Source: Actinomycetospora sp. TBRC 11914
Lineage (GTDB): Bacteria > Actinomycetota > Actinomycetes > Mycobacteriales > Pseudonocardiaceae
Length of the DNA stretch: 64,000 bases
Direction: 5' to 3'
NCBI RefSeq assembly: GCF_012933465.1
Contig: NZ_JABBND010000001.1
Location: 1,116,001 to 1,180,000, forward strand
Program-made: the position numbers and the translations under genes
The notes under the pieces: generated by a model
Seen by the model: the letters and a program-made list of their open reading frames with translations, nothing else
Told to the model about the DNA's origin: nothing
Databases searched by the model: none
Shown here: in pieces, positions 9,067 to 57,511 of the stretch
How positions within the stretch are numbered: position 1 is the stretch's first letter
Layout of the letters: every line of letters starts with the position of its first letter

Positions 9067-9112
9067 CATGTGCACGGATGTGGTCGCCAGGACGACCACA
9101 TTCGTTCACGTG
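9067..9112. repeat. Palindromic repeat family A, copy 1 (bidirectional terminator)
   Basis: Left arm CATGTGCACGGATGTGGTCG, 6-base loop, right arm at 9093-9112, 17 of 20 pairs. It fills the gap between the convergent patatin and ddrB genes. The ddrB stop codon (9106-9108 on the minus strand) lies inside the right arm. Related copies are at 29295 and 56948 with the same arm and loop lengths. Confidence 0.8.
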
Positions 9113-9516
9113 GCGCGCAGCGCCAGCCCCGCGACGATCCGGGCCGCGTCCGCCCCCGCCCGCCGCGCCTGCGCCGCCGACGGCCCGCCGGCCAGCGCCA
9201 GCACGGCCTCGGGAACCAGTGCGTGCCGGACGACGACGGCGCCGTCGGCCCCGATGCCCACCCCGACCTCGAGCCGGGACTCCGTGGCCGCGTGCCGCCC
9301 GGCGTCGTCGGGACCCGCCACCGTCGAGCCCAGGATCGCCGTCGGGATGCCCTGCTCCTCGGCGCCCGCGCAGACCTCGCGCAGCACGGCGGGCGGGGCG
9401 TCGTCGTGGACCGCGACGAGCACGGCGGGAGGCAGCGCGGGGTCGTCGGCGCGGTCGATGCGCCCGTGACAGCCCGGTCCTCCCGACGCGGAGACCCCCG
9501 ACAGCGGGCTGGTCAC
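9106..9516 (-). CDS. Diol/glycerol dehydratase reactivase small subunit
   Basis: 136 residues from GTG 9516, overlapping the large reactivase stop by GTGA. It resembles DdrB/PduH/DhaG: a small Rossmann-like domain with PAVLVAVHDD near the start, GIPTAIL, and the late LAGGPSAAQARRAGADAARIV helix. In the family it pairs with the large subunit and swaps damaged cobalamin for intact coenzyme B12 on the dehydratase. Last gene of the operon; its stop lies in a palindromic repeat. Confidence 0.82.
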   Translation of the reverse strand: MTSPLSGVSASGGPGCHGRIDRADDPALPPAVLVAVHDDAPPAVLREVCAGAEEQGIPTAILGSTVAGPDDAGRHAATESRLEVGVGIGADGAVVVRHALVPEAVLALAGGPSAAQARRAGADAARIVAGLALRAT

Positions 9517-11372: not shown

Positions 11373-11410
11373 TGCCGACCTTCCTGTTCCCCGAGGTGGC
11401 CTCCGGCCTC

Positions 11411-11468
11411 GTGAGCACTCAGTGCCGGTATAGCGACACTTGGTGCTCACGAGCGCGGAGCGCACCTA
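11411..11468. repeat. Palindromic repeat family B, copy 1, inside the dehydratase operon
   Basis: Arms GTGAGCACTCAGTG (11411-11424) and CACTTGGTGCTCAC (11437-11450), 12 of 14 pairs, then an 18-base tail GAGCGCGGAGCGCACCTA whose final CTA is the medium-subunit stop codon on the minus strand. The tail matches 16 of 18 bases with the copy at 50182-50199. It probably lowers read-through into the reactivase genes. Confidence 0.75.
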
Positions 11469-12047
11469 ATCGACCCGCGTGATGACCGGCTCGACCTCGA
11501 CCGCGGCGCGGGCGTGGTCGATGCACTCGAACTCCTTGAGGTGCAGCAGCGCCGCCTTGGCCTGCCAGCGCGGGCGGGCCATCTGGTCGTTGCGCGTCGG
11601 CACCGGCCGGGGGGACTGCCCCTGCGCGTACTGCGCCGCGTTCGCGCCGATCATGCGGAAGACCTCGGCGTCGAGCAGCGGGGCCTGCGGGAAGAGCTCG
11701 AGGTTGGACAGCCGCGCCAGGTCGCGCTGGTGGAGCACCGTGGTGCCCCGCGACAGCACGCCCACCGCGATGCCCGACCCCGAGAGCTTCGCCCCGAAGT
11801 GCGCGATCGCCGCGAGGTCCGCGGTCCGGTAGACCTTGATGATCCGCGCCGACCCCCCGCGCTCCTCGATGCCCGCCAGCAGCTGACGGATCACCTCGGC
11901 GTGCGGCACGTCGACGATCGTCTTCGTGAACGGCTCCCCGAAGGCCGGCGAGAGCGCGATGACGACCTCGTCGGGCCGGGTGCCGCGCTCGGCGGGCCCC
12001 ACCTCGCGCAGGGTCAGCGTGCGGACCGACTCCACTGCCGCGGTCAT
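11466..12047 (-). CDS. Propanediol/glycerol dehydratase, medium subunit
   Basis: 193 residues from ATG 12047, overlapping the large-subunit stop as ATGA, with GAGGAGG upstream. Shows the medium-subunit pattern DEVVIALSPAFGEPF, then VPHAEVIRQLLAGIEERG and RIIKVYRTADLAAIAHFGAKLSGSGI (segment about 69-93), which contacts the cobalamin tail in PduD/DhaC. Shorter than PduD of enteric bacteria (about 224), lacking an N-terminal extension. In PduD that extension targets microcompartments, so its absence fits a free cytoplasmic enzyme. Confidence 0.9.
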   Translation of the reverse strand: MTAAVESVRTLTLREVGPAERGTRPDEVVIALSPAFGEPFTKTIVDVPHAEVIRQLLAGIEERGGSARIIKVYRTADLAAIAHFGAKLSGSGIAVGVLSRGTTVLHQRDLARLSNLELFPQAPLLDAEVFRMIGANAAQYAQGQSPRPVPTRNDQMARPRWQAKAALLHLKEFECIDHARAAVEVEPVITRVD

Positions 12048-16467: not shown

Positions 16468-17982
16468 GTGAGCTCGACGATGCCGTCACGCCCCGAGCCG
16501 GACACCGACCCGGAGCCCGACGAGCATCCGCGCTCCGCCACCCGGCACTCCGCGGACCACCACACCGGCGCGCTGCTCGGCTCGGATCCGCTGCTCGGAC
16601 GGGTCGTCGCCCGGCTCCGCGCCCTCACCGGCGCCGACGCCGGCTGGGTGGTCCGGGTCGACGAGGCCGCGGGCAGCTGGGCGGTCGAGGCCGGCGACGG
16701 GCCGGGGCTGCCGCCCGCCGACGTCGTCGCCGAGGTGGTCGCGACCCGGCAGTCCGCGGTGGTCCCGGCCGGGCCCGGCGGTCGCTCGGTCCTTGCGGTC
16801 CCGGTGCGCCGCGGGCCGCGCCTGGTCGGGGTGTGCGTGGTCGCCGCCGCGGCCCCGCGCCGGACGTACACCGCCGCCGACCGGGGACTGGCCGAACTGG
16901 TCGCCGACTACGCCGCGCTCGCGCTCGCCGACCACGGCGCGCTCGCCGGGCGTGGGCTGATGGAGGGCCTGCGCCAGGAGCTGGCCTGGACCGAGGGCAC
17001 CGGCGTCCGGGCCGACCTCGTCGCCGTCGGCCAGCCCGCGCTCGACGGCCGGGTGGCCGACGAGGTGTTCCGGGTCGTGCAGGAGGCGCTCGCCAACGTG
17101 GTCGCGCACGCCCGGGCCCGTCGGGTCCAGGTGGGCGTCGTCCCCGGGCCGGGGACGCTGACGGTGCTGGTCGAGGACGACGGCCGCGGCTTCGACGTCG
17201 CCGCGCACGGCGGGCTCCACGAGGCCGCGTCCGGGACCCGCCGGGGGCTGGCCGCGATGACCGCCCGCGCCCGGCGTCTCGACGGCGAGCTGGAGATCGA
17301 GAGCGCGCCCGGCGACGGCACCGTGCTGCGGCTGACCGTCCCGTGCGGAGCGGAGCCGGCGTCCCCCGGCCGGACCCGGCCGTCGGTGCTGGTGGCCGCC
17401 GCGCGCCCCGTCGTGCGGGCCGGCGTCGTCCGCCTCCTGCAGCTCGGCGCCCCGGACCTCGGGATGGTCTCGGAGGTCGACGGGTCGGAGGACCTCGCCG
17501 CGACCTGCCGGCTCCTCGACCCGGACGTGCTCGTCGTGGAGCCCGACGTGCTCTCCCCCGACGGCGACCTCGCCGTCGCCCTCGGCCGGGTCGCGGACCT
17601 GCCCGCACCGCCCGCCGTCGTGCTGCTCGCGTCGTCGTGCCCCGACCACCGCCTGCGCACCGCCGTGGCCGCCGGGGTCAAGGGGTGCGTGGGTCCTGAC
17701 GACGGCGGCCGGCTCGCCGCCGTGGTCACCGCGGCCGGGCGCGGGGAGACGTCGTTCGCGCCGGACCAGCTCGGGGTGCTCGCCGCCGCGCCCGAGCGCC
17801 ACCGTGGCGTGACCGCCCGGGAGCAGGAGGTCCGGGGCCTCGTCGCGCAGGGCTTCACCGACCGGCAGATCGCCTCCGCGCTGTCGATCTCGGCGAAGAC
17901 CGTCGAGAAGCACGTCGGCTCGTTGCTGCGCAAGACCGGCGCCCGCAACCGCACGATGCTGGTCCACCTCGGCGGCCGCTGA
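16468..17982 (+). CDS. GAF-HATPase-pseudoreceiver-LuxR hybrid regulator
   Basis: 504 residues from GTG 16468, chosen for GAGGAGG six bases upstream. Domains in order: GAF-like sensor (about 35-155); a histidine-kinase-type ATPase (about 190-292) with N-box EVFRVVQEALAN, G1 box VEDDGRGFD and a G2-like GTRRGLAAM; a receiver-like domain (about 305-415); a LuxR helix-turn-helix (about 446-500, ending VEKHVGSLLRKTGARNR). The dimerisation/phosphotransfer helices with their His are missing. In the receiver the acidic pair is Ala311-Ala312 and the phospho-Asp position is Glu358. It may be an ATP-responsive one-component regulator. Cytoplasmic, with no membrane span. Confidence 0.85.
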   Translation: MSSTMPSRPEPDTDPEPDEHPRSATRHSADHHTGALLGSDPLLGRVVARLRALTGADAGWVVRVDEAAGSWAVEAGDGPGLPPADVVAEVVATRQSAVVPAGPGGRSVLAVPVRRGPRLVGVCVVAAAAPRRTYTAADRGLAELVADYAALALADHGALAGRGLMEGLRQELAWTEGTGVRADLVAVGQPALDGRVADEVFRVVQEALANVVAHARARRVQVGVVPGPGTLTVLVEDDGRGFDVAAHGGLHEAASGTRRGLAAMTARARRLDGELEIESAPGDGTVLRLTVPCGAEPASPGRTRPSVLVAAARPVVRAGVVRLLQLGAPDLGMVSEVDGSEDLAATCRLLDPDVLVVEPDVLSPDGDLAVALGRVADLPAPPAVVLLASSCPDHRLRTAVAAGVKGCVGPDDGGRLAAVVTAAGRGETSFAPDQLGVLAAAPERHRGVTAREQEVRGLVAQGFTDRQIASALSISAKTVEKHVGSLLRKTGARNRTMLVHLGGR

Positions 17983-18040
17983 CGCCGTGTGTGCGTGCGT
18001 TCCCGTGTCCTGACACGGGAACGCACGCACGAGGCGTCAG
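17979..18040. terminator. 62-base bidirectional palindrome spanning both stop codons
   Basis: Core arms GTGCGTGCGTTCCCGTGTC (17991-18009) and complement (18012-18030), perfect over 19 bases; outer arms CTGACGCC (17979-17986) and GGCGTCAG (18033-18040). The TGA of the LuxR hybrid and the TGA of the convergent aldo/keto reductase both lie in the outer arms. Works as a terminator in either direction. Confidence 0.85.
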
Positions 18041-28500: not shown

Positions 28501-29301
28501 ATGAGGGACGGGAGGGCCGTGGTGGCCGAGGAACGGGTGCGGGTGTCCGAGGAGACGCCGGGCGTGGTGCGCGTCGCGCTCACCAACGGACCGGGCAACA
28601 ACGTCGTCGACTTCGAGCTCGGCCGCCAGCTCCGCGAGGCCCTCGCCGGGCCCGCCCGGTCCGCGCGGGTGGTCGAGATCGTCGCCGAGGGACCCAACTT
28701 CTGCGTCGGCGGCGACGTGCGCGGCTTCGCGGCGGACCCGGACGCCAGCCTCACCGCGCTCGCCGACGACTTCCACTCCTGCCAGCGGCTCGTCTGGGGC
28801 CTCGCGCAGCCCGTCGTCGTCGGCGTCCAGGGGTGGGCCGCGGGCATCGGCCTGTCGTTCGCGCTGACCGGGGACGTCATCGTGCTCGCCGCCGGCGCGA
28901 AGCTGCGCCCGGCCTACACCGCGATCGGGCTGACCCCCGACGGCGGCATGACCGCGACGCTGCCCGCGGCGGTCGGGCGCGCGAAGGCGCTGGACATGTT
29001 CCTGACCAACCGGCCCATGGGTGCCGAGGAGGCGCTCGCGTCCGGGCTGGCGAGCCGCGTCGTGCCCGACGCCGACCTGCACTCCGAGACCGCCGCGATC
29101 GCGGCGACCATCGCGGCCGGGCCCGCGCAGGCCCTGGCGGCGACGAAGAAGCTGGTGCGCACCGCCGACGGCGTGCTCACCGACGCCCACCTCGAGGTGG
29201 AGGCGAAGTCGATCGGCGACCGCGGGCTCTCGGCCGAGGGGCGGGAGGGCGTGGCGTCGTTCGTGGAGAAGCGGTCGCCGAGGTGGCCTTCGGCCATGTG
29301 A
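28501..29301 (+). CDS. Enoyl-CoA hydratase/isomerase
   Basis: 266 residues from ATG 28501; GTG 28522 has a better GGAGGG ribosome site and may be the true start. Crotonase fold: oxyanion loops NFCVGGDVRGF and VVVGVQGWAAGIGLSFALTGD, then LTPDGGMTATLPAAVGRAKALDMFL. One acidic residue of the usual glutamate pair is not obvious, so it could be an isomerase or another CoA-acting crotonase. Stop codon lies in palindromic repeat family A. Confidence 0.87.
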   Translation: MRDGRAVVAEERVRVSEETPGVVRVALTNGPGNNVVDFELGRQLREALAGPARSARVVEIVAEGPNFCVGGDVRGFAADPDASLTALADDFHSCQRLVWGLAQPVVVGVQGWAAGIGLSFALTGDVIVLAAGAKLRPAYTAIGLTPDGGMTATLPAAVGRAKALDMFLTNRPMGAEEALASGLASRVVPDADLHSETAAIAATIAAGPAQALAATKKLVRTADGVLTDAHLEVEAKSIGDRGLSAEGREGVASFVEKRSPRWPSAM

Positions 29302-29340
29302 ACGAATGTGGTCGCCGGGGCGACCACATCCGTTCACGTG
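29295..29340. repeat. Palindromic repeat family A, copy 2
   Basis: Left arm CATGTGAACGAATGTGGTCG (29295-29314), loop CCGGGG, right arm CGACCACATCCGTTCACGTG (29321-29340), 18 of 20 pairs. The TGA of the enoyl-CoA hydratase gene is inside the left arm. Here both flanking genes point right, so it acts as a simple terminator. Confidence 0.85.
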
Positions 29341-45210: not shown

Positions 45211-45260
45211 GCGGACCAGCGTCGGACCTGAAGCGTCGTCGAGGTCAAGCCCCCGTCCCC

Positions 45261-45375
45261 GCGCGAGGGGAACCCTCGGCCTACTAGAGCGGCCGGATGT
45301 TCCCCTCGCGTCCGGGAGCGGGCGCCGCGAGGGGAGGATCGAGTCGCTCTAGCCGGCCGAGGGTTCCCCTCGCGC
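45261..45375. repeat. Nested palindromic element with four copies of one motif
   Basis: Outer inverted repeats at 45261-45281 and 45355-45375 are perfect over 21 bases. Inside lie CTAGAGCG (45284-45291) and CGCTCTAG (45345-45352), then TCCCCTCGCG (45301-45310) and CGCGAGGGGA (45327-45336). The 10-base motif CGCGAGGGGA thus occurs four times in alternating orientation. It lies between the ABC operon and the upstream gene's stop. It could act as a terminator, or be a MITE- or BIME-like element. Confidence 0.75.
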
Positions 45376-46807: not shown

Positions 46808-46855
46808 ACGAACGGCCGGCTCGTCACCGAAGAAGGTGACGAACCGGCCGTTCGT
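46808..46855. terminator. 21-base stem terminator after the decarboxylase gene
   Basis: Arms at 46808-46828 and 46835-46855, 20 of 21 pairs, loop GAAGAA, starting ten bases beyond the stop codon of the TPP enzyme (minus strand). Confidence 0.85.
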
Positions 46856-48957: not shown

Positions 48958-50145
48958 ATGTCCCGCGACGCCGCCGTGGACCGTGACGCCTCCGCCGCCG
49001 CCGCACCCCTCGGCGCGACGCGCGACGTGGTGCCCTTCGAGCTCGACATCCCCGACGCCCAGGTCGCTGACCTGCACGAACGGCTTCGCCGGGTGCGGCT
49101 GCCGGAGCCGGAGCCGGTCGACGACTGGTCCCAGGGCATCCCGGCCGCCGTCGTCGCGGAACTGTGTCGCGCCTGGCTCGAGGAGCACGACGTGCACGCC
49201 CTGGCCGCCGAGCTCAACGGCCGGGGCCAGTACCGCACCGTCATCGACGGGCTCGGCATCCACTTCCTGCACGTAGAGTCACCGCGGCACGACGCACAGC
49301 CATTGCTCATCACCCACGGGTGGCCGGGCTCGGTGGTCGAGTTCCTGGACGTCCTGGACGCCCTGACCACGCCGTCGGACCCGTCGGCCCCGGCATTCCA
49401 CGTGGTCGCGCCGTCGTTGCCGGGCTTCGGGTTCTCCGACAAGCCGACCACGACCGGCTGGGGCGTCGACCACATCGCCGACGCGTGGGTCGAGCTGATG
49501 GACCGTCTGGGCTACGACCGCTTCCTCGCCCAGGGCGGCGACTGGGGTGCGATGGTGACGACGGCGCTCGGGGCGCGCCACCCCGACCGCGTCGCCGGCC
49601 TCCACACGACGATGCCGCTGGCGGCGCGCCCGGAGGGCGCGCGGACCGAGGACCTCCCCGAGCTCGAGCAGCGGTGGCTGGCGCAGGCGCGGGAGTTCCG
49701 CGAGGTCGGCAGCGGCTACTCCGGCCAGCAGCGGACGCGCCCGCAGACCCTCGGTTACGCGCTGGTCGACTCGCCGGCCGGCCAGCTCGCGTGGATCGCC
49801 GAGAAGTTCGCGGTGTGGACCGACGGCGGGGCGACGCTCGAACCGTCGGTGCCGCGGAAGCGCCTGCTGGACAACGTGGCCGTCTACTGGTTCGGCGCGT
49901 CGGGGGCGTCCTCGGCGCGGCTGTACTGGGAGAGCTTCGGCGGGGTCGACCGGTCGGCCCCGGTGACCGTCCCCTCGGCCGTGTCGATCTTCCCCGCCGA
50001 GATGGCGAAGATGCCGCGCTCGTGGGTCGAGGCGCGCTACACCGACCTCCGGTACTGGAACGTCCTCGACCGCGGCGGGCACTTCGCCTCGCTGGAGGTG
50101 CCGGAGCTGTTCGTGGCCGAGCTGCGAGGTGCCTTCGGCTCGTGA
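48958..50145 (+). CDS. Epoxide hydrolase (EHN + alpha/beta hydrolase)
   Basis: 395 residues from ATG 48958. N-terminal EHN domain (about 20-110, FELDIPDAQVADLHERLRRVRLPEP), then an alpha/beta hydrolase: oxyanion HGWPGSVVEF (120-129), nucleophile Asp195 in QGGDWGA, PGFGFSD, and terminal His in GGHFASLE. This is the microsomal-type epoxide hydrolase group, which adds water to epoxides to give diols. Its stop codon sits in palindromic repeat family B. Confidence 0.93.
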   Translation: MSRDAAVDRDASAAAAPLGATRDVVPFELDIPDAQVADLHERLRRVRLPEPEPVDDWSQGIPAAVVAELCRAWLEEHDVHALAAELNGRGQYRTVIDGLGIHFLHVESPRHDAQPLLITHGWPGSVVEFLDVLDALTTPSDPSAPAFHVVAPSLPGFGFSDKPTTTGWGVDHIADAWVELMDRLGYDRFLAQGGDWGAMVTTALGARHPDRVAGLHTTMPLAARPEGARTEDLPELEQRWLAQAREFREVGSGYSGQQRTRPQTLGYALVDSPAGQLAWIAEKFAVWTDGGATLEPSVPRKRLLDNVAVYWFGASGASSARLYWESFGGVDRSAPVTVPSAVSIFPAEMAKMPRSWVEARYTDLRYWNVLDRGGHFASLEVPELFVAELRGAFGS

Positions 50146-50199
50146 GCACTTTCTGGTGCTATGGCACCAGAAAGTGCTCACGGGCGCGAAGCGCACCTA
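50142..50199. repeat. Palindromic repeat family B, copy 2
   Basis: Perfect 18-base arms GTGAGCACTTTCTGGTGC (50142-50159) and complement (50164-50181), 4-base loop, then tail GGGCGCGAAGCGCACCTA. The epoxide hydrolase TGA is in the left arm, and the CTA at the end of the tail is the stop codon of the convergent nitronate monooxygenase. Tail matches 16 of 18 bases with 11451-11468. Confidence 0.85.
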
Positions 50200-55595: not shown

Positions 55596-56954
55596 ATGCG
55601 CACGCACGCGGTGGCGATCGTCGGTTCCGGGCCCTCCGGCTTCTACGCCGCCGGGGCGCTGCTCGACTCGACCGACCCGCCGGTGCGCGTGGACATGTAC
55701 GACCGGCTCGCGACGCCGTGGGGTCTCGTCCGCGCCGGCGTCGCCCCCGACCACCCGAAGATCAAGTCGGTGAGCGGGCAGTACGAGAAGATCGCGGCCC
55801 AGCCCGGGTTCCGGTTCTTCGGCCACGTCTGCCTGGGCGAGGACGTGACCACCGAGGAGCTGCTCGAGCGCTACGACGCGGTGGTCTACGCCGTCGGCTC
55901 GCAGACCGAGCGCCGCCTCGGGATCGAGGGCGAGGACCGCGCGGGCAGCCACGCCTCGGTGGACTTCGTCGGCTGGTACAACGGCCACCCCGACTACGTC
56001 GGCCTCGCGCCCGACCTCGGCGCCGAGCGCGCGGTGGTGATCGGGGCGGGGAACGTGGCGCTCGACGTCGCGCGCATGCTCCTGCTGCCCGAGGACGACC
56101 TGCGCCCCACCGACACCGCCGACCACGCCATCGAGGCCCTCGCGGGCTCGAGCGTGCGGGAGGTCGTGGTGTGCGGGCGCCGCGGGCCGGTGCAGGCCGC
56201 GTTCACCACCACCGAGCTCCGCGAGCTCGACGACATCGACGGCCTGGGGATCGTGGTCGATCCGGCGCAGTTCCCGGACGCGGCCGGCGACGAGGACCTC
56301 CCCAAGGCGACCCGCCGCAACGTCGAGAGCTTCCGCCGCTGGGCCGAGGCGGGGCCCGCGGAGGGCGCCGAGCGGCGGCTGGAGTTCCGGTTCCTGCGCT
56401 CGCCGGTGCAGATCCTCGGCGAGGACGCCGACGGGCCGGTGACCGGCGTCGAGCTCGCGGTCAACCGGCTCGAGACCGACGACGACGGCCGGGTCCGCCC
56501 GGTGGACACCGGCGAGCGCGAGACCGTGGAGTGCGGGCTGGTGCTGCGCGCCGTGGGCTACCGCGGGGTGGCCCTGCCCGGCGTGCCCTTCGACGAGGGC
56601 TCGGGGACGATCCCGCACACCGAGGGGCGCATCGAGGGCCGCGAGCGGGAGTACGTCGTCGGGTGGATCAAGCGGGGCCCCACCGGGATCATCGGGACCA
56701 ACCGCAAGGACGCCAACGAGACGGTGCGCGCCCTGCTGGCCGACCTCACGTCGGGGCAGCGCGAGGACGCCGTGATCGCCTCCGCCGAGGAGGTCGAGGA
56801 GTGGCTCTCGGAGCGGGTCCCCGACCTCGTGGACCTCGACGGCTGGGAGGCGATCGACGCCCACGAGCGCGCCGCCGGAGAGGGCGGCGGGCGCCCGCGG
56901 GTCAAGGTCGTCGACCGGGGCGACTTCATGTCCCTGGTGCGCGAGCGCATGTGA
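55596..56954 (+). CDS. fprA: Ferredoxin-NADP+ reductase (FprA/adrenodoxin-reductase type)
   Basis: 452 residues from ATG 55596 after AGGATCGGG. FAD motif IVGSGPSGFYAAGALL, then PWGLVRAGVAPDHPKIKSV, the second dinucleotide motif VIGAGNVALDVARMLL, RRGPVQAAFTT and terminal GWIKRGPTGIIGTNRKDANETV. All are characteristic of mycobacterial FprA. It moves electrons from NADPH to ferredoxin for P450s and other oxygenases; the P450 and diiron genes in this window are possible clients. Its stop lies in repeat family A. Confidence 0.95.
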   Translation: MRTHAVAIVGSGPSGFYAAGALLDSTDPPVRVDMYDRLATPWGLVRAGVAPDHPKIKSVSGQYEKIAAQPGFRFFGHVCLGEDVTTEELLERYDAVVYAVGSQTERRLGIEGEDRAGSHASVDFVGWYNGHPDYVGLAPDLGAERAVVIGAGNVALDVARMLLLPEDDLRPTDTADHAIEALAGSSVREVVVCGRRGPVQAAFTTTELRELDDIDGLGIVVDPAQFPDAAGDEDLPKATRRNVESFRRWAEAGPAEGAERRLEFRFLRSPVQILGEDADGPVTGVELAVNRLETDDDGRVRPVDTGERETVECGLVLRAVGYRGVALPGVPFDEGSGTIPHTEGRIEGREREYVVGWIKRGPTGIIGTNRKDANETVRALLADLTSGQREDAVIASAEEVEEWLSERVPDLVDLDGWEAIDAHERAAGEGGGRPRVKVVDRGDFMSLVRERM

Positions 56955-56993
56955 ACGCTTGTGGTCGCGTGGACGACCACAAGCGTTCACATG
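56948..56993. repeat. Palindromic repeat family A, copy 3, with stop codons of both flanking genes
   Basis: Perfect 20-base arms CATGTGAACGCTTGTGGTCG and complement (56974-56993), 6-base loop. The fprA TGA is in the left arm and the TGA of the convergent gene in the right arm. Best-formed copy of the family. Confidence 0.9.
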
Positions 56994-57511
56994 GCGTCAG
57001 CCTCCTCGTCCAGGGCGATGTGGCGCAGGTCCCGGGCCTCGGGGGTCTCGAGGAGGTCGGTGACGTAGGCGATCACGTGGTGGCGGATCTCGGCGTCGAG
57101 GTTGCCGAGACGCCGGACGAACACGCCGCCGATGCCCCGCGTCCTCGTCTCCAGGGCGATGTCGGCGGGCCCGAGCTCGTCGACCTCGACGACCACGTGG
57201 TCGGCCCCGGGCGCGAAGCAGGCCTCGAGCCCGATCCGCACGGTCATCGTCGCCTCGACCGGCACCGTCTGCGCGCCGATCTGCACGGTGACGTCGAGGT
57301 CCACCGGCACGTGGACCTCGGTCCGCCCGACCCGCGAGCCGCGTCGCCCGCGCAGCCGCCCGACGATCCCGGTCGCGTGGGCGGTCGCCATCCCGCCCGG
57401 CCCGGCGGCGACCGGCCCGAAGGCCACCCGGTCCCCGATGAGCGCCCCGATGTCCCGCACGGCCCGCTCCGGCGTCGCGATCGCCGACACCACCGCGTCG
57501 TGGTCGCTCAC
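56987..57511 (-). CDS. Conserved hypothetical protein
   Basis: 174 residues from GTG 57511, GTGA-coupled to the DUF4873 gene. Beta-rich core: ATAHATGIVGRLRGRRG, RTEVHVPVDLDVTVQIGAQTVPVEATMTVRIGLEACFAPGADHVVVEVDELGPADI. It resembles proteins that accompany TetR/oxygenase clusters in actinomycetes, but I do not recognise the family. Third gene of the TetR-DUF4873 operon, so it may share the function of the divergent oxidative operon. Confidence 0.7.
   Translation of the reverse strand: MSDHDAVVSAIATPERAVRDIGALIGDRVAFGPVAAGPGGMATAHATGIVGRLRGRRGSRVGRTEVHVPVDLDVTVQIGAQTVPVEATMTVRIGLEACFAPGADHVVVEVDELGPADIALETRTRGIGGVFVRRLGNLDAEIRHHVIAYVTDLLETPEARDLRHIALDEEADAM

Follow-up and report, generated by a model that had tools for sequence, protein, structure and literature searches.

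A dispersed 40-nt palindromic repeat at gene 3′ ends of Actinomycetospora that supplies stop codons to flanking genes

Results

Palindromes and modules of the window

The window studied here is the whole 64,000-nt stretch of Actinomycetospora sp. TBRC 11914 (contig NZ_JABBND010000001.1, positions 1,116,001 to 1,180,000), and its gene calls are those of a simple caller that learned codon usage from the window, with no annotation used. It contains three palindromes with 20-nt arms around a 6-nt loop (family A, table 1), and their geometry, as given in the initial annotation, is borne out by the window sequence, as is the agreement of the arms (17, 18 and 20 of 20 positions). The arm sequence that they were said to share, CATGTGAACGNNTGTGGTCG, finds six matches in the window at up to three mismatches, which are exactly the six arms, against 0.03 matches expected from shuffles. 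A TGA of a flanking gene lies inside an arm at all three copies, which the gene calls confirm, and at 56948 both convergent genes do terminate in the arms of the palindrome. At 9067 the in-arm stop serves the minus-strand gene only, the plus-strand gene stopping 4 nt ahead of the palindrome. Folding energies of the three copies are -28.9, -32.5 and -36.3 kcal/mol, with z scores against shuffles of -5.9, -6.4 and -9.4, so all three are far more stable than shuffled sequence.

Table 1. Positions of palindromes, modules, stop codons and in-gene copies (window coordinates unless residues are given)
Feature	Position	Strand	Basis or remark
Family A palindrome, 17/20 pairs, convergent gene pair	9067..9112	.	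arms read
Stop of plus-strand gene left of the 9067 palindrome	9062	+	outside palindrome
TGA stop of minus-strand gene 9106-9423 (Dehydratase_MU), right arm	9106..9108	-	gene call, Pfam
GGCGC-GCA-GCGCC mini-hairpin beginning with the last base of the 9067 palindrome	9112-9124		by eye
Full subfamily C module: AGGTG, mini-hairpin, hairpin 11408-11453, mini-hairpin, CACCT	11394..11467	.
AGGTG and GGCC-TTC-GGCC mini-hairpin ahead of the 29295 palindrome	29281-29294; last base of mini-hairpin 29295		by eye
Family A palindrome, 18/20 pairs, tandem gene pair	29295..29340	.	arms read
TGA stop of plus-strand gene 28519-29301 (enoyl-CoA hydratase family), left arm	29299..29301	+	gene call, Pfam
Full subfamily B module, 46-nt hairpin at 50139-50184	50127..50198	.
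Family A palindrome, 20/20 pairs, convergent gene pair	56948..56993	.	arms read, fold computed
TGA stop of plus-strand gene 55596-56954 (Pyr_redox_2 protein), left arm	56952..56954	+	gene call, Pfam
TGA stop (TCA on the plus strand) of minus-strand gene 56987-57511, right arm	56987..56989	-	gene call
In-gene copy, HrpB helicase	near residue 490 of 809		in-frame
In-gene copy, acyl-CoA carboxylase alpha	near residue 545 of 685		in-frame
In-gene copy, ABC transporter	near residue 310 of 1076		in-frame

Two sister-subfamily modules of the same 40-nt frame, which are absent from the initial annotation, also lie in the window, with hairpins at 11408-11453 and 50139-50184. In the former, the TAG of minus-strand gene 11466-12035 consists of the module edge plus one base; in the latter, TGA 50143-50145 ends the plus-strand gene and the module edge contributes two bases to the TAG that ends the minus-strand gene. 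Seven of the eight window genes flanking modules belong to enzyme families in a Pfam scan, and only gene 56987-57511 has no Pfam match. No Rfam family reaches its gathering score in the window; four matches of miRNA/sRNA models on the palindrome (E 0.03-0.6), far below gathering scores, were taken as chance.

These modules extend beyond the long hairpin. At 26 subfamily B and C sites of the genome, 43 of 52 hairpin flanks have AGGTG at a distance of no more than 16 nt, against only 3 of 216 in family A, and the AGGTG..CACCT edges are at most candidates for the terminal inverted repeats of a MITE. AGGTG and the long hairpin are separated by a mini-hairpin with a 4-bp stem and a loop of 3 nt (GGCC-TCC-GGCC, GCGC-TTC-GCGC and the like). 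Self-pairing of the mini-hairpins (167 of 208 stem positions) exceeds both left-with-right pairing (123 of 208) and that of random sequence (32%), so each of them seems to be conserved as a hairpin in its own right. In family A, under a permissive rule (3-5 bp stem, 3-4 nt loop), mini-hairpins occur in 164 of 216 flanks, compared with 21% of random window positions.

The window holds other inverted repeats as well. A further perfect 19-nt palindrome, GTGCGTGCGTTCCCGTGTC, at 17991-18030 fills a 54-nt convergent gap (17982-18037) that measures 3-5 nt in three congeners; this seems to be a distinct hairpin that was acquired recently. A near-perfect 21-nt palindrome, ACGAACGGCCGGCTCGTCACC, at 46808-46855 lacks the GTGA frame and is kept, with changes, in the same gap of A. 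endophytica. The intergenic stretch 45249-45375 holds long nested inverted repeats, one of them with 50-nt arms of 86% complementarity.

Distribution of the repeat

The initial annotation had proposed a dispersed family from three copies, and further copies do exist. The inner arm GTGAACGNNTGTGGTCG, at no more than one mismatch, has 96 matches in the 6.5-Mb genome of the window (G000), 48 on each strand, with none for the reversed control. Family A comprises 54 places there, mostly complete 20-6-20 hairpins. Double hairpins stand at four of these places (L031, L036, L044 and L067); their members are 34-37 nt apart and have loops that are mutual reverse complements or nearly so, and the A. endophytica ortholog is a single hairpin for L031 and L067. 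Among 41 genomes including G000, the family A arm is otherwise frequent only in A. endophytica (G015, 63 matches) and in G013 (17 matches in a genome only 59% complete), and each remaining genome has 0-2. An exact degenerate hairpin pattern searched in the contigs of 84,980 species, one genome each, where the record of the window itself is possibly missing, found only A. endophytica TBRC 5722 and one Actinomycetospora MAG.

A wider frame, GTGARYR-N26-YRYTCAC, occurs at 200 exact places in G000 and 128 in G010, and the reversed control gives none in either genome. The hairpin frame is 40 nt long, or 46 nt including outer pairs. Ten shorter spacings (N16-N25), pooled, give 16 places in G000 against 200 for N26, and one of the 16 is plainly a member one base shorter; judged against these shorter spacings, the 40-nt length of the hairpin is locked at the level of sequence. 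The constant GTGA..TCAC ends are imposed by the search pattern itself. Among the matches listed for G000 (about 50 of 200), the places sort into discrete subfamilies: A, B (GTGAGCACTTTCTGG.., loop near CTATAG) and C (GTGAGCAC/G..AANTGTCG, loop near TATA). About 50 of the 128 matches in G010 were listed, and they comprise an A-like set, GTGAGTGATCTGGGTCG, with loop YCNNGR and several sets with a CTATAG loop. The initially described family is therefore real and dispersed but too narrow, family A being one subfamily of a longer module. In G010, one and the same tandem pair of hairpins from two different subfamilies, with starts 58 nt apart, is found at C2:307686-307783 and 638389-638486, as if the two had been copied together.

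A covariance model built from 108 hairpins of two species (G000 and A. endophytica) matches all 18 Actinomycetospora genomes, with 2 to 147 matches each when both strands are counted and at most 150 candidates are scored per genome. In the best matches of the other species the middles differ and the frame is the same in nearly all cases read, L201 being unreadable in this way. A scan of 160 genomes of the order for the frame singles out G000 and six genomes that belong to one other genus. The latter, which we take as Amycolatopsis from one G093 protein 92% identical to a cluster named after A. alba, have 39-205 copies, against at most 7 in the rest of the order scan and at most 2 in the control. 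In a scan of the class (98 genomes), a further genus contributes two genomes with 14 and 9 similar hairpins; three other genomes of that genus have 0-2 copies and the rest of the class scan, except G000, at most 4. The hairpins of these two genomes, G226 (14) and G236 (9), which come from another family of the class, are of GTGAGCGTCTACTGGCGCTATAGCC type in the same 40-nt frame. In the Amycolatopsis-type genome G093 (L228-L242), many listed copies belong to a second subfamily with unequal arms, AAGTGTCG versus AAAGAGCG type, which tends to be more distant from gene ends in the 15 loci read; the recurring arm mismatch suggests a different role.

Position relative to genes

Placement was read from 108 hairpins, 57 from G000 and 51 from A. 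endophytica, collected under a relaxed rule (at least 12 of 17 arm positions matching). Two of the 54 family A places of G000 (L055 and L057) fell below this rule, and one intermediate copy among the 108 (L188:3574) leans to subfamily B. Convergent gaps hold 62 hairpins, tandem gaps 35 and divergent gaps 2; of the other nine, 7 are in-gene and 2 at in-gene edges. The 65 gene pairs of the window include 13 convergent, 14 divergent and 38 tandem ones. The repeat is concentrated at gene 3′ ends, and copies equally common inside genes, which would have spoken against the initial annotation, are not what is seen: only 7 of 108 hairpins (and the 2 edge cases) lie in genes, against 73% of random 46-mers of the window.

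That the repeat supplies stop codons is likewise upheld, the in-arm TGA being used by 87 of 159 facing gene ends, some of which are counted twice where the hairpins of a doublet are counted separately. This TGA occupies arm positions 5-7 and usually reads ATG TGA, so that the last residue of the protein is Met. Other registers among the 159 ends include 19 stops at -9 and 11 at -2. At the 26 B and C sites, with 42 gene ends, 19 stops lie at -12, where a T and the adjoining AG of the module edge (AGGTG) make up the TAG, and 9 at +7, which is the in-arm TGA. At the two sites compared with orthologs lacking the module, the module rewrites the C-terminus and carries the stop: in peptides read from DNA, AELRGAFGS* compares with AELRESFRGVVC* at 50145 and KRSPRWPSAM* with KRRPAW* at 29301.

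Three of the in-gene copies of G000 (table 1) share a reading frame and give HVN(G/E)xGRxDDHIRSxA-like peptides, and A. endophytica has copies at places matching the in-gene copies of G000. Of 33 aligned carboxylase homologs, 11 have the peptide, intact or decayed, and in the remaining 22 the same loop is three residues shorter and made of unrelated residues. HrpB homologs without the peptide have an unrelated linker of varying length. The in-gene copies have somewhat fewer Watson-Crick pairs than the others (17.1 versus 18.1 of 20; p 0.049, n = 7 in-gene). The three copies read in frame cannot be full terminators, because full termination in mid-gene would destroy these long genes.

Inheritance and base pairing

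At least 24 of the 54 family A places of G000 have an orthologous copy in A. endophytica, a fraction biased upwards because many A. endophytica loci were chosen for holding family A. Six places have no intact copy there (L042, L048, L049, L057, L072 and L078:7898), so the element is dispensable at these sites, and at L078:7898 A. endophytica retains a clear remnant of the repeat. As for the others, L035 and L061 are rearranged, L075 and L076 have one flank only, L055 corresponds to a different gap, and 19 have no ortholog within the A. endophytica stretches examined; L045:3993 is counted in the 19, although L147 has a copy at a matching place.

Of 18 congeners, 12 have a hairpin of exactly the 40-nt frame at the site orthologous to 56948, and six or more different middles occur among them. 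The carriers are G000, G013 with a B-type hairpin, A. endophytica with a diverged A copy, and nine genomes at greater distance whose hairpin has a GTGAGC base. Since these congeners share the frame and differ in the middle, the frame must be old at this site and the middle must have turned over. Five closer congeners have longer gaps with no hairpin of the 40-nt frame in the 760 bases searched, and G006 has a different hairpin that is not of this frame.

In the 24 orthologous copies of G000 and A. endophytica, 20 base pairs have changed on both sides with Watson-Crick pairing kept, and these paired changes occur at 13 of the 24 copies. The same pairs show 67 one-sided changes (16 to or from G-U and 51 breaks) and 10 other changes. 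The alignment of all 108 hairpins contains 98 double-change cells against 44.2 in shuffled alignments and 13-22 in slid controls; its paired percentage is inflated, because the hairpins were selected at 12 or more of 17 matching arm positions. Mean similarity is 0.884 for orthologs (22 of the 24 pairs, with doublet sites L036 and L067 dropped), 0.871 for copies within G000 and 0.848 between species. Orthologs are barely more alike than paralogs, and therefore the copies, while inherited, are either homogenised or tightly constrained. Judging from these similarities, gene conversion between copies could be a partial source of the double changes, mimicking compensation.

Terminator features and copying machinery

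A U-tract (at least 5 T in 8) follows none of the 216 hairpin ends and no terminator-like site was detected between 48000 and 60000 of the window, which rules out a canonical intrinsic terminator despite the GC-rich hairpin. The features of a U-less terminator are present, namely a stable hairpin about 50 nt or less from the stop codon without a U-tract. At tandem sites, G-U and A-C pairs in the sense orientation number 22 and 16, too near equal to tell whether selection acts on RNA or on DNA.

No Y1 transposase (PF01797, E ≤ 0.001) was found in the 18 Actinomycetospora or the 6 Amycolatopsis genomes, while the same search was positive in 5 of 14 control genomes. GTAG or its complement occurs in 26 of 216 flanks (12%) against 195 of 5000 control positions (4%), an excess that neighbouring TAG stops may explain, and CGTC or its complement in 36 of 216 (17%) against 1448 of 5000 (29%); neither forms a constant tag. 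A REP mobilised by a RAYT is rejected on these grounds, there being no Y1 transposase in the 18 and 6 genomes and no constant one-sided tag. The genes between closely spaced copies at four loci likewise include nothing pointing to a transposase, and with this a composite transposon or parent IS was set aside. Among the sites compared, no target-site duplication was recognised and no clean empty site with a duplication was seen.

Discussion

The family, its locked length, its placement at gene ends, its supply of stop codons, the in-frame copies in genes and the paired changes are all features that can be read from the sequences themselves. What these features mean is best captured, in our opinion, by a REP-like repeat that is kept at gene ends as a stop-supplying and probably bidirectional 3′-end hairpin, a reading that we consider rather probable. 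It would start from a dispersed non-coding palindromic repeat of Actinomycetospora, a length-locked 40-nt hairpin often flanked by mini-hairpins, whose copies would have accumulated in the genome with time and lasted mainly at the 3′ ends of genes. In these positions, the in-arm TGA, or a TAG formed at the module edge, would have become the stop codon of the gene, and the transcribed hairpin would most likely end or protect mRNAs arriving from both directions, acting as a U-less ('I-shaped') bidirectional terminator or as a 3′-end barrier. A hairpin working on transcripts from both sides fits the placement, the strand symmetry, the stability and the paired changes, and because no U-tract follows any of the 216 ends, a terminator would have to be U-less or a 3′-end barrier. 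We infer such RNA termination or 3′-end protection, as we infer past mobility and a copying machinery. Weighing against this reading are the missing U-tracts, the near-equal G-U and A-C counts at tandem sites, the copies within long genes, the six places of G000 with no intact copy in A. endophytica, a possible share of gene conversion in the double changes, and the lack of a recognised target-site duplication at the sites compared. The origin as a repeat is the better supported of the two parts, because the locked length, the subfamilies, the in-frame copies, the presence and absence of copies between species and the remnant at L078:7898 all speak for it, whereas termination is suggested by placement and pairing.

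How much of the gene-end association reflects function is the point on which other explanations differ. A purely selfish REP-like repeat would insert widely, be purged from genes and be tolerated at gene ends, with the stop codon as a by-product; the in-frame copies in variable loops of long proteins, the presence and absence differences with a decayed remnant between species, the dominant arm type in G000 and the doublets at four sites of that genome all agree with such behaviour. We regard this as possible though doubtful, given that divergent gaps hold hardly any copies (2 of 99 intergenic hairpins, compared with 14 of 65 window pairs, although promoters there may be intolerant), that A. 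endophytica retains a copy at 24 or more of the 54 places, 13 of 24 compared showing paired changes, and that in-gene copies are slightly less paired than the rest. It is improbable, at the opposite end, that the hairpins are host terminators that never moved, kept in place at convergent genes and made alike through gene conversion or a preferred stem sequence. The 56948 site, where 12 of 18 congeners have the same frame as if only the middle had turned over, and the small difference between orthologs and paralogs would suit this, but neither a locked 40-nt length nor conserved flanking mini-hairpins would be expected of hairpins evolved in place. Nor would in-frame copies within genes, modules that extend or replace C-termini, or the absence of a hairpin of the 40-nt frame from the 56948 site in five closer congeners and G006.

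The fixed length and the two-fold symmetry could also be set by a sequence-specific protein (nucleoid, replication or roadblock) that determines half-sites and spacing at a DNA site, its specificity shifting by species. The constant GTGA..TCAC ends, although set by the search pattern, the subfamily-specific middles and the wobble pairs without clear strand bias could be accommodated in this way, but several middles co-exist in one genome, all of which a single protein would need to recognise, and the strict tie of the repeat to stop codons and to the 3′ ends of genes would be left unexplained, which makes this an unlikely account. If the hairpin acted at the stop codon on the ending of translation or the recycling of ribosomes, and not on transcription, this would explain why stops stand at preferred registers relative to it. 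Such an action holds little promise in our view, as 72 of 159 facing ends use other registers and the two-way symmetry at convergent pairs suits RNA 3′ ends at least as well. In a stronger form of the preferred reading, which is put forward tentatively and with more doubt than conviction, the repeat could be a new class: a symmetric, length-locked palindrome between mini-hairpins, copied by non-RAYT means, with a constant 40-nt GTGA..TCAC frame and a middle replaced genome-wide in each species, and adopted as a dual-strand terminator and supplier of stop codons.

If true, the preferred reading would mean that repeats set a considerable fraction of the gene ends of these actinobacteria, a copied element providing the stop codon, the last protein residues and probably the 3′ end of the RNA. 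The many near-identical natural hairpins at convergent genes make U-less transcript ending in high-GC actinobacteria directly testable. The species-specific middles in one rigid frame encourage us to ask what copies or homogenises them without a REP transposase.

Comparison with known systems

Among the best matches in the open-licence literature there was no description of such a repeat in Actinomycetospora or Amycolatopsis, and one may exist in print. The TRIT motif of Mycobacterium tuberculosis, from the RNIE paper of Gardner et al. of 2011, is mentioned in PMC3526491. It is reportedly a conserved hairpin motif enriched at the gene termini of this actinobacterium, and in that description it resembles the present repeat.

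The I-shaped terminators of mycobacteria, as passages of PMC12288462, a review of mycobacterial transcription, present them, share with our hairpins the position soon after the stop codon, the lack of a poly-U stretch and the setting of a GC-rich actinobacterium; in our understanding of these passages, they are defined by structure with no repeated sequence family, whereas here one sequence family is involved. The titles among the references of that paper disagree on whether a U-tract is needed. Rickettsia palindromic elements (RPEs) also form in-frame palindromes in unrelated genes and yield a recurring peptide, according to parts of PMC10969869 and PMC3733652. They are described in these parts as about 150 bp long and unusually frequent in genes, against 7 of 108 hairpins in genes here. 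In this comparison by description, the recurrent peptide of our repeat is, unlike that of the RPEs, a minor by-product of a minority of copies.

The closest comparison is with REPs, as the initial annotation had proposed, and it holds for behaviour (high-copy, short, extragenic, near 3′ ends) but not for the definition of a REP by its tag and Y1 transposase. In the sections of PMC3733652 devoted to them, REPs are, as here, short high-copy palindromes occurring as singletons and dimers, mostly in convergent or co-directional gaps near 3′ ends. GTAG REPs are reported in the same sections often to supply a TAG stop, to favour convergent and co-directional gaps and to be able to lie in ORFs (PMC3733652); hence stop supply and in-gene copies are known REP behaviours. 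The main text of that paper makes no mention of actinobacteria, Amycolatopsis or Pseudonocardia. Set against the REPs of that account (PMC3733652), ours is a symmetric repeat without a constant one-sided GTAG or CGTC tag. It further differs in its 40-nt locked length, species-varying middle and flanking mini-hairpins, with no Y1 transposase found. What sets it apart from REPs is the frame, the symmetry, the mini-hairpins and the lack of a RAYT.
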